From contig NC_008701.1 of the NCBI RefSeq assembly GCF_000015205.1, positions 682,001 to 746,000 on the forward strand: a DNA stretch of 64,000 nt, given 5' to 3'. The notes under the pieces are model-generated. The model did not search any database, was not told the DNA's origin, and was given only the letters and a program-made list of their open reading frames with translations. Source of the stretch: Pyrobaculum islandicum DSM 4184 (GTDB lineage: Archaea; Thermoproteota; Thermoprotei; Thermoproteales; Thermoproteaceae). Within the stretch, counting starts at the first letter, position 1, and the number at the start of each line of letters is the position of its first letter. A program made the position numbers and the translations under genes. Positions 46,413 through 50,234 of this stretch are shown one piece after another.

Positions 46413-47465
46413 TTACTCAAATAATTTTATCATTTTACGCATTTTTAGATACTGCGCATAGTCTATGTATATCTTGTCACGCAACATCTGCTCCACAGTA
46501 GGCACGTCCGTTTTTTGTCTTTCTAGAATTGTATCTGTGACAGTAAATACATATGCATTAGACCCAGCACCGCTTCCAAACGGCACAAGTAATATTTTGT
46601 CTCCGGGTTTGGCCATGTCAAGGATCTTGGCGAACCCCATTAATGCCGAGGCGTTATACGTATTGCCTATGTGTGTAACTACAATTCCTGGCTTTACCTT
46701 CTCTATAGGAATGTTTAACATCGATGCTACACGAACTGGAAATCTGCCATTTGGTTGATGAAATACCGCATATGTAAAGTCAGAGGGCTTATACCCATAT
46801 TTTTCCATGAGACCTCTAGTAGCTCCTATAATGTGACGAAAATATGCAGGCTCCCCTGTAAAACCCTCTCCGTGCATAGGATATGGTGATCCCTCTCTTC
46901 TCCAAAAGTCGGGCGTATCCGATACAAACGAATACACAGCCTCCAGCTCTGCGACTATACCATCTCTCCCCACAATTAATGCAACCCCTCCACTGCTGGC
47001 AGAGTATTCTAAATGCTCGCCGGGCTCTCCTTGCGACGTATCCGCACCTACCGTCATACCATATTCAATTCTACCAGATTCTACAAGCCCCACAGCTGCC
47101 ATTAGGCCCTCGCTACCTGCCTTACATGCAAATTCCATATCGACAGCAAACACGTTATTGCTAAGCCCCAACGCGTCTACTAGTATAGAAGATATTGGCT
47201 TTACGGCATATGGCTTAGATTCCGTACCGACATAAATCGCCCCTATACGCTTTGGGTCTATCCTCGCCCTCTTCAAAGCTCTCTTAGCAGCCTCAACCGC
47301 TATGGTTACAGCATCTTCGTCTATTCCCTCTACACTCTTTTCATCAACAAGATACAGATCTACAATTCGTAGAGGGTCATCACCCCAGATTTTAGCCACC
47401 TCCTCTGTCCTAATCCGGTATTTTGGTATATACGCGCCCCAACTTACTATACCAACGCGGCTCAT
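46413..47465 (-). CDS. Hydroxymethylglutaryl-CoA synthase
   Basis: 350 aa, archaeal HMG-CoA synthase. Condenses acetyl-CoA with acetoacetyl-CoA. [16 protein letters not shown] at the start, catalytic Cys in [12 protein letters not shown] (about 108-119), catalytic His in [14 protein letters not shown] (about 262-275), and [13 protein letters not shown] (about 299-311). Its start overlaps the DUF35 gene by 4 bp. Part of the cluster DUF35 - thiolase-like - HMG-CoA reductase, giving the entry to isoprenoid lipid synthesis. Confidence 0.95.
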
Positions 47466-47866
47466 ACCCCATCAACTGGCCTAAACTTATAACCATACAT
47501 GACAAGCCCATATTTTCCATCTACCATAACCCTACGAAATACAGCTTCTACTTTCGCTCCTTGCGTGAGCTTTTCCGGCTGAACATCTACTATCTGGCCT
47601 ACTACCTTAACGCCATTAGAAAGTTCGACAAGCCCTATTACTAAGGGCTTTTGTTTGAGAAAATCTGTGCCAACCTGATACAATACTGTAAACTCCACGA
47701 GTTTTCCCTCATGCGGAAGTTCAAAGTCTTCCAACTCCTTAGAACCACATCGGCATTTTATAACTGGCGGAAAGTAAACTGCGCCACATTTTTTACATCT
47801 CTTAGCTACAAGACGATAGTAATGAGGGATATTTCTCCAGTATATTGGCACTGACTCGTGTTTCAT
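47462..47866 (-). CDS. DUF35 zinc-ribbon/OB-fold CoA-binding protein
   Basis: 134 aa. Zinc ribbon [20 protein letters not shown] (about 24-43) with four cysteines, followed by an OB fold ([13 protein letters not shown] ... [15 protein letters not shown]). In methanogens the DUF35 protein bridges acetoacetyl-CoA thiolase and HMG-CoA synthase so that the intermediate is passed on directly. The order thiolase-like - DUF35 - HMG-CoA synthase here suggests the same complex. 33-bp gap after the thiolase-like gene. Confidence 0.9.
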
Positions 47867-47899
47867 ATTAACACATTATCACTCTCTTTTTATATCTTG

Positions 47900-49006
47900 T
47901 CATACTCCAACAACGACAACTGTCGACACTCTATCAACACCCCCCATATTGTGCACCAACCCATAATCTCCATCTACACGTTTGAATTCTCTGCCTATAA
48001 GTTGCCAAGCAACCTCCACTAATTGGTAAACCCCAGTGGCGCCGAGTATGTTACCTCTGGATTTAAGGCCGCCGCTGAGATTAATAGGTAAATCGCCTTC
48101 TCTTATAGCCGCTAACGCGCCACCTCTTTTTACAAAACCGAGACTCTCTAGTGCAAGTATACCAAATATAGAGAAAGAGTCGTGTACCTCCGCCGTCGCT
48201 ATATCTCTGGGAGTGACTTTTGCTTTTTCAAGCGCTTTTTTCGCTGCCTCTTGTGCGCTATAGAGGGTGTCATAATCTTGCCTTAGGTTAAATGGTATGG
48301 CGTTTGTAGAAACAGATGCCGATAGTATGCGTGGACCGTCTTTTTTGTTGTTACACAATACGGCAGCTGCAGCACCGTCTGCGAGGGGGCCAATATCATA
48401 TAGGCGCAATGGCTCACTGACAAGCTCGCTATTAATGGCGTCTTCAATTTTTATCTGCCTTCTAAGATATGCGTAGGGGTTGTTTGCACCATGTTTATGC
48501 ATTAACACCGCCCACTGTGCCAACTCTTCATACCTGTATTCATACTTTCTCAAGTATACCTTTGCCATTAATGCCGCATATGCCAACGGGGTAATACCGA
48601 AGTATCTCTCAAAATAGGTATCAAGAGTTGTAGCGTAGATATCTTGCTGTTGGTTACTTAATACGTCGTTTGGCTTATCGACACCCACAACAGCGACACA
48701 GTTGTACTCCTCTGATTTCAAGACATGATGCGCCAAAGCTATGGCAGCCCCTCCAGATCCATCGCCGTCTTCTATTCTAAATACGGGTATTTTATCAAGA
48801 CCGAGAGACTCCAGTACATACGCGCCCAAGATCTGCTGTTTGTTTGCAAGCTCGGCAGTTGATGATGCTATAAAAACGGCTTCAATATCTGTCTTTGCTT
48901 CTGCTAATGCTTTGTCTAAAACTTCTGCAGCCATGTCATCAATATTTTTACCATAATGTCTCCCCGCGGGATATAAGGCCCCTCCTACAATGTATACGTC
49001 TCTCAT
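47900..49006 (-). CDS. Thiolase-superfamily protein lacking the usual catalytic Cys and GHP His
   Basis: 368 aa, archaeal SCP2-type thiolase fold. The nucleophile loop, normally EAACASGGAA in archaeal relatives, reads EDGDGSGGAAIALA (Cys replaced by Asp). The NPSGGxxxKGHPxGATG motif reads NLSGGLKSRGNILGATG (His replaced by Asn), and HDCF is HDSF. It may therefore be inactive or use different chemistry, perhaps acting as a scaffold for HMG-CoA synthase. ATG 49006 is the family start; the frame is open to 49210 but runs over the reductase gene. TATA-like ttttaataa is about 26 nt upstream. Confidence 0.88.
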   Translation of the reverse strand: MRDVYIVGGALYPAGRHYGKNIDDMAAEVLDKALAEAKTDIEAVFIASSTAELANKQQILGAYVLESLGLDKIPVFRIEDGDGSGGAAIALAHHVLKSEEYNCVAVVGVDKPNDVLSNQQQDIYATTLDTYFERYFGITPLAYAALMAKVYLRKYEYRYEELAQWAVLMHKHGANNPYAYLRRQIKIEDAINSELVSEPLRLYDIGPLADGAAAAVLCNNKKDGPRILSASVSTNAIPFNLRQDYDTLYSAQEAAKKALEKAKVTPRDIATAEVHDSFSIFGILALESLGFVKRGGALAAIREGDLPINLSGGLKSRGNILGATGVYQLVEVAWQLIGREFKRVDGDYGLVHNMGGVDRVSTVVVVGV

Positions 49007-49010
49007 CGAA

Positions 49011-49035
49011 GAGTTATAAAGCCAACTTATTAAAA
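49011..49035. promoter_or_regulatory. Interleaved divergent promoters (thiolase-like operon / HMG-CoA reductase)
   Basis: The two ATGs (49006 minus, 49044 plus) are 37 bp apart. AGTTATAAA at 49012-49020 is about 26 nt before the reductase ATG; on the other strand TTTTAATAA (about 49028-49036) is about 26 nt before the thiolase ATG. Both boxes lie between the start codons, so polymerase on one should block the other. Confidence 0.55.
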
Positions 49036-49043
49036 TGTTTTTA

Positions 49044-50234
49044 ATGGAAGTTAAGTTACACGAGTTTGAAAAAATATACGGCGACGCCAATAAAGCAGCC
49101 GAGGCAAGACGCCAGTTTTTAGAGAGAGTAACAGGTGTAAAGTTGGAAAATATAGGCAAGACGACGATAGATCTAAACACTGTTGTCGGAAAAAATATAG
49201 AAAACGTCATAGGGGCTGTGCAGATACCAGTTGGCGTCGCAGGCCCCTTATTGATAAAAGGCGATTATGCAAACGGCTATTTTTACATCCCGCTCGCAAC
49301 TACTGAGGGGGCGCTTGTCGCCTCGGTAAACAGAGGGGCAAAAATAATTACAGAGTCTGGTGGTACTAGGGTAAAAGTCTTAAAAGATGGCATGACCAGG
49401 GCGCCTTTGTTTAAACTACAGTCAGTTATAGAAGCCATAAAATTTGTAGAGTGGGTATATCAACATTTTGACGAATTGAAAAAGGTAGCAGAGTCTACGA
49501 CTAAACATGGGAAATTAAAAGAAGTACAACCCTTTATAGTTGGGAATTACGTGTGGCTAAGATTCGTCTTCTCTACGGGGGACGCCATGGGTATGAATAT
49601 GGTTACTATAGCCACAGACGCTATTGCGAAATATATAAGTGAGAAGTTCCCTGAAGCAAAACTTGTGGCACTTAGCGGAAATATGTGCGTTGATAAAAAA
49701 GCCAATGCTGTGAACTTTATATTAGGTAGAGGTAAAACTGTAATAGCAGAGGCGTTGATAAAGAGAGATGTATTGGAAAAATTTGGAGTCTCTCCTGAAG
49801 ATGTTCACAACGTAAACGTCGAGAAAAATCTCATAGGCTCAGCATTAGCGCATTCATACGGTTTTAATGCACATTTCGCCAACATTATAGCAGCAATATT
49901 TATCGCAACAGGGCAAGACGTAGCACAAGTTGTTGAGTCTAGCATGGGCATAACGACGACTGAACCTAGAGAAGAGGGCTTATACATATCTGTATTTCTG
50001 CCCAGTCTAGAAGTCGGCACCGTAGGTGGTGGAACAGGGCTACCTACGCAACGAGAGGCTTTAGAACTGTTAGGGGTGGCAGGCCCAGGGAACCCGCCTG
50101 GCACCAACGCTCTAAAATTTGCGGAAATTGTAGCCTCAGCGGTGTTAGCCGGGGAGCTAAATCTGCTTCTGGCTCTTACACGAAACGAATTGGCTTCAGC
50201 CCATCAAAGATTGGGTAGAGCTAAAGGGACATAG
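49044..50234 (+). CDS. hmgA: 3-hydroxy-3-methylglutaryl-CoA reductase
   Basis: 396 aa, class I HMG-CoA reductase, catalytic domain only. ENVIGAVQIPVGVAGPLLI (about 51-69) with the catalytic Glu region, TTEGALVASVNRGAK (about 83-97), DAMGMNMV, GNMCVDKKANAVNF (about 213-226) with the Lys, GTVGGGTGLPTQREAL (about 324-339) and the His in NELASAHQRLGR near the end. Makes mevalonate with NADPH for archaeal lipids. ATG 49044, leaderless; the earlier in-frame ATG at 49035 is too close to the TATA box. Confidence 0.97.
   Translation: MEVKLHEFEKIYGDANKAAEARRQFLERVTGVKLENIGKTTIDLNTVVGKNIENVIGAVQIPVGVAGPLLIKGDYANGYFYIPLATTEGALVASVNRGAKIITESGGTRVKVLKDGMTRAPLFKLQSVIEAIKFVEWVYQHFDELKKVAESTTKHGKLKEVQPFIVGNYVWLRFVFSTGDAMGMNMVTIATDAIAKYISEKFPEAKLVALSGNMCVDKKANAVNFILGRGKTVIAEALIKRDVLEKFGVSPEDVHNVNVEKNLIGSALAHSYGFNAHFANIIAAIFIATGQDVAQVVESSMGITTTEPREEGLYISVFLPSLEVGTVGGGTGLPTQREALELLGVAGPGNPPGTNALKFAEIVASAVLAGELNLLLALTRNELASAHQRLGRAKGT

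Follow-up and report, generated by a model that had tools for sequence, protein, structure and literature searches.

Thiolases that are linked to HMG-CoA synthase (HMGS) but have lost catalytic residues recur across the Thermoproteota, extending beyond the single Pyrobaculum islandicum gene described in the first-pass annotation. In this hot-spring archaeon, a thiolase at such a position would be expected to provide the starting compound for membrane lipid synthesis. In P. islandicum, whose genome is complete (1,826,402 bp), this gene belongs to a thiolase-DUF35-HMGS order that spans positions 46413-49006, (-) strand, of the window, that is, the whole 64,000-nucleotide stretch of DNA that was analysed. 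The features of the locus are:

47903-49006, (-) strand: pseudo-thiolase, SCP2-type, archaeal acetoacetyl-CoA thiolase-like, 368 aa, intact (ORF translation, family profiles)
48761-48763, (-) strand: codon 82, Asp (GAT), aligned with the nucleophiles Cys85 (6esq) and Cys83 (7yvy)
48182-48184, (-) strand: codon 275, retained His in HD[S]F, opposite His284 of 6esq and His285 of 7yvy
48050-48052, (-) strand: codon 319, Asn (AAC), in the column of the GHP His, opposite His336 of 6esq and His335 of 7yvy
47462-47866, (-) strand: DUF35 protein (ChsH2-type zinc ribbon and OB fold), 134 aa, four zinc Cys (PF01796, PF12172)
46413-47465, (-) strand: HMG-CoA synthase, 350 aa (NF003274, TIGR00748, active-site motifs)
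49035-50234, (+) strand: divergent neighbour ORF, HMG-CoA reductase-like (ORF list, motif resemblance)

The gene order that had been read from the letters was borne out by the ORFs and the family profiles. All three products matched their families clearly, and the HMGS gene starts just before the DUF35 gene stops. HMGS reached 570 bits with NF003274 and 494 bits with TIGR00748, and the DUF35 protein 55.1 bits with PF01796 and 39.1 bits with PF12172, all over cut-off. The thiolase belongs to the thiolase superfamily according to PF22691 (93.7 bits, cut-off 28) and is above threshold for PF00108 (51.3 bits, cut-off 26.4); with NF053570, the equivalog of the archaeal acetoacetyl-CoA thiolase, it scored 234.8 bits, below the curated cut-off of 600. 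The divergent ORF, which has an alternative in-frame ATG at 49044, is a putative HMG-CoA reductase, judging from its motifs. HMG-CoA reductase catalyses the next mevalonate step.

Active-site residues were mapped by alignment with the solved archaeal thiolases 7yvy and 6esq and by position counting. The best solved relative is 7YVY (204 bits, full length), the acetyl-CoA acetyltransferase of Pyrococcus furiosus. The M. thermolithotrophicus complex 6esq contains the same three protein families, encoded by linked genes, and its thiolase is of the same family (176 bits, nearly full length). Whereas 7YVY has Cys83 and His335 and 6esq has Cys85 and His336, the Pyrobaculum protein carries Asp82 in the EDGDGSGGAA loop and Asn319 in GNILGATG, so that both substitutions claimed by the first-pass annotation were confirmed, against the solved archaeal enzymes as well as in the other Thermoproteaceae copies. 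Among the residues expected of an acetoacetyl-CoA thiolase (EC 2.3.1.9), the nucleophilic Cys and the GHP His are thus missing and the HDxF His is present. Because the first two are replaced, an acyl-enzyme should be impossible to form. The protein has only two cysteines, C103 and C218, and a relocated nucleophile was rejected since Cys also occurs at these columns in Cys-bearing enzymes (5 and 9 of 14, respectively); no candidate for a substitute active-site Cys, which would have overturned the earlier claim, was found by sequence. An AlphaFold model of the pseudo-thiolase built from a three-row alignment had a mean pLDDT of 39, too low to interpret.

We then considered how far these residues are conserved. 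Within the Thermoproteaceae, 17/17 full-length orthologues carry Asp82 and 18/18 carry Asn319, which excludes a sequencing error or chance, and none of the three residues Asp82, His275 and Asn319 varies in this family. Ketosynthase III has a His-Asn pair, which His275 and Asn319 recall. Both points favour an enzyme with a different chemistry based on these three residues, for example a CoA-ester decarboxylase, hydrolase or aldolase, a reading that we regard as unlikely. In the sister genera the picture is less strict: every Caldivirga-, Thermocladium- or Vulcanisaeta-like orthologue examined keeps Asp82, but Tyr, Phe, Ser or Cys may take the place of the His and the Asn. GHP becomes GN, GY or GF in the Caldivirga- and Thermocladium-like genera, one of which has also lost the HDSF His. 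Beyond these genera the Asp column itself varies. Among 45 Cys-less sequences other than the Bathyarchaeia-like ones, column 82 was Asp in 35, Glu in 4, Gly in 4, Gln in 1 and Leu in 1. The first-pass annotation had offered new chemistry as one of two readings; with a column that takes five different residues, and with the other active-site residues decaying, this proposal is not supported. A narrower form of it, in which Asp82, His275 and Asn319 of the Thermoproteales subunit took on a new catalytic role inside the HMG-CoA complex, such as activating or protecting acetoacetyl-CoA, seems quite unlikely to us, given that lineages differ at this column and at the residues next to it. If it were true, the complex would have swapped thiolase chemistry for a new reaction or for a gated intake of substrate. 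The strict Asp of several families could nevertheless mean selection on an Asp function, and this counts against regarding the protein as a pseudo-thiolase.

Known proteins of the thiolase fold provide some parallels. The chain length factor (KS-beta) of type II polyketide synthases is a Cys-less thiolase-fold subunit and the obligate partner of a live condensing enzyme; its likeness to the pseudo-thiolase is an analogy only, as family, pathway and partner all differ. The second-best solved relative of the Pyrobaculum protein, the putative acyl-CoA acyltransferase 4YZO (185 bits), is also Cys-less (NTSGSGG, Ser at the column), but it keeps the GHP His and represents a separate paralogous group that is not HMGS-linked in the genomes examined. 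Thiolase-fold proteins without the nucleophilic Cys are in fact already established, namely Ltp2 (with its DUF35 partner ChsH2), Sal (with the DUF35 protein Shy) and the trypanosomal SLP (PMC12329534). The steroid aldolases Ltp2 and Sal share with the Pyrobaculum thiolase a DUF35 neighbour, and the existence of such aldolases, together with the weak decarboxylation of malonyl-CoA by SLP (PMC12329534), again speaks for a different chemistry. However, Ltp2 and Sal use the catalytic Tyr of a YDxF/Y motif and have no HMGS partner, and in the Pyrobaculum subunit this Tyr is absent, the motif being HDSF.

To place the P. islandicum gene among its relatives, HMGS was located in 130 of 161 Thermoproteota genomes and its flanks were read for a family-spread sample. 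Both flanks were read, as most lineages have the order HMGS-thiolase-DUF35, with the thiolase downstream. In the 67 sampled genomes with both genes, the HMGS-linked thiolase was Cys-less in 52 and Cys-bearing in 15. Seven of these genomes, which we take to be Bathyarchaeia-like, have a fused HMGS-DUF35 (L156, L157, L158, L159, L160, L161, L162) with a thiolase-like gene upstream, in which the Cys loop is shortened away, GNP stands for GHP and a YDQST-like sequence for HDSF. With its Tyr-Asp, this sequence recalls the thiolase-fold aldolases. On trees inferred quickly and without bootstrap, the distribution of the Cys required 6 state changes for HMGS and 4 for the thiolase with the motif columns removed, and supported branches force 3 Cys changes in each tree. 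The Cys was thus lost independently at least three times, and four to six times on the best trees. Linkage to HMGS is not always genomic: in Vulcanisaeta-like genomes the Asp-type thiolase is paired with DUF35 in a unit of two genes, at a distance from an HMGS gene that stands alone (L249; G033:C1:1580831-1581214), and loss of the pair from these genomes was rejected since it was found at this other locus. In two further genomes, G193 and G153 (L178, L179), DUF35 lies beside HMGS and a single Cys-bearing thiolase lies elsewhere (L238, L237).

The partner proteins remain apparently competent. In the P. islandicum HMGS both catalytic residues are in place, the Cys in EFACKAGS and the His in HQPNGRF; the Cys is present in every motif variant listed for 99 partner sequences, as is the His motif HQPN, and the four-Cys zinc ribbon is found in 65 of 66 DUF35 ORFs. 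The ratio of thiolase to HMGS distances was 1.24 in Cys enzymes versus 1.56-2.35 in the Cys-less groups (computed from non-independent pairs). Cys-less subunits therefore evolve about 1.5-2 times faster relative to HMGS, yet they stay intact and DUF35-linked. The faster rate, as expected under relaxed constraint, argues against a new chemistry and would suit a functionless, decaying relic. Further in favour of a relic, one very close pair of sequences gave a dN/dS of ~0.3, although this value comes from ten differences, too few to weigh. Against it, the ORF is intact in all orthologues examined, the protein is ~80% identical between Pyrobaculum species, and the pairing with DUF35 persists even when the two genes are separated from HMGS. 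Between Pyrobaculum species dN is 0.12-0.15 with saturated synonymous sites, which indicates purifying selection on the gene, and we consider a relic highly improbable. Residues Lys111, His170, Asp210, Gly211, Asp276, Asn309 and Lys315 do not vary in either the live or the dead groups; together with the faster rate, this pattern fits a loss of catalysis in a fold that would be kept, perhaps along with CoA-ester binding.

A Cys-containing thiolase was also sought elsewhere in the P. islandicum genome, and three were found with a Cys loop and a GHP His (G000:C1:26451 (-), 1179582 (+) and 1306112 (+)), the first two of which also carry NEAF and the second Cys motif. Thermoproteaceae contain additional SCP2-type paralogues (L026 to L032 and L034) whose Cys apparently lies one column earlier (RVEACAAAG). 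When genomes were searched with PF02803 and PF22691, the HMGS-complex-type thiolase was the only thiolase detected in 15/15 Cys-keeping genomes, and another thiolase with a verified Cys was present in 35 of the 40 Cys-less genomes searched. Two more Cys-less genomes (G001, G155) gave further canonical thiolase matches that were left outside this Cys-verified count, and the two family searches found no other Cys-thiolase in G101 (a MAG), G113 and G173. Loss of the Cys is thus almost always confined to genomes in which another thiolase exists, these last three being the exceptions. The association of Cys state with another thiolase gave a Fisher p of 1.3e-9, uncorrected for kinship; three independent contrasts lie on supported branches, of which ~2.8 are concordant, too few for significance. 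The sister contrasts G088 (Cys, sole thiolase) versus G128 and G079 versus G181 agree with it.

G113 and G173 are both f30 genomes (L181, L231 and L191, L232, respectively). They have HMGS, and the one other thiolase copy in each belongs to the 4YZO type and has Ser in place of the Cys. Such genomes, like the presence of the gene at the operon position of the active thiolase, are what could be expected if the subunit were a slow thiolase that makes acetoacetyl-CoA without the Cys, via Asp82 or a His275-aided direct condensation in the complex. This is very unlikely in our judgement, as the subunit has neither the Cys that would accept the acyl group nor the GHP His, competent thiolases are encoded in the same genome, and the genomes that keep the Cys (15/15) are those in which this gene is the sole thiolase.

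Acetoacetyl-CoA is also an intermediate of the dicarboxylate/4-hydroxybutyrate cycle. P. islandicum has a match to the 4-hydroxybutyryl-CoA dehydratase family at G000:C1:242762, and a dicarboxylate/4-hydroxybutyrate (DC/HB) cluster is listed for this species in a 2025 paper (PMC12794621). The dehydratase family was found in 24/47 Cys-less versus 0/15 Cys genomes, meaning that the cycle is one route to acetoacetyl-CoA and not a general condition. We rejected the idea that the cycle alone caused the Cys to be lost, since the Caldivirga-like and several other Cys-less lineages are without the dehydratase.

Altogether, these data make it likely that the pseudo-thiolase maintains the assembly with DUF35 and HMGS and its CoA-ester site, with acetoacetyl-CoA coming from another thiolase or from the 4-hydroxybutyrate cycle. 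Its ancestor would be the active acetoacetyl-CoA thiolase of the archaeal complex with DUF35 and HMG-CoA synthase, and the protein would have been retained since the assembly still needs it. Homology to 6esq suggests that the P. islandicum proteins form such a complex with a shared CoA site, in which the subunit probably links DUF35 to HMGS and contributes part of that site. Acetoacetyl-CoA would then be made by one of the three other thiolases or by the dicarboxylate/4-hydroxybutyrate cycle and be taken up by the complex. Thiolases favour the cleavage direction, and for this reason acetoacetyl-CoA supplied to the complex would be wasted by a live thiolase there; loss of the Cys would stop cleavage to acetyl-CoA and could be neutral or beneficial in a cell that has another source. 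The reading of a structural subunit plus another thiolase, proposed in the first-pass annotation, is well supported by the three other Cys/GHP thiolases, the pattern of Cys loss and the kept DUF35 pairing; the scaffold function is what we infer from sequence comparison. Binding of CoA esters, catalytic inactivity and the source of acetoacetyl-CoA in P. islandicum are likewise predicted from the genes.

We found no published account of inactive thiolases in archaeal mevalonate clusters in the open-licence literature. Within that literature, the repeated death of the thiolase of the archaeal mevalonate complex appears unreported, the Cys-less thiolase-fold proteins mentioned above being already known. 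The thiolase/HMGS complex is regarded as a textbook example of substrate channelling, by which an unfavourable condensation is drawn into the mevalonate pathway. Should the thiolase have died repeatedly while the assembly persists, channelling would not be the sole reason for the complex, and in many crenarchaeal genomes the wrong gene would be annotated as the mevalonate acetoacetyl-CoA thiolase. Lineages that can be paired, one with a live and one with a dead subunit, would offer a natural experiment on the scaffold role. Elsewhere in P. islandicum, a 581-aa ORF (L095:3779-5521) that comes directly after genes for an SCP2-type thiolase with its Cys and for an acyl-CoA dehydrogenase-like protein reads as a 3-hydroxyacyl-CoA dehydrogenase fused to a DUF35-like domain.
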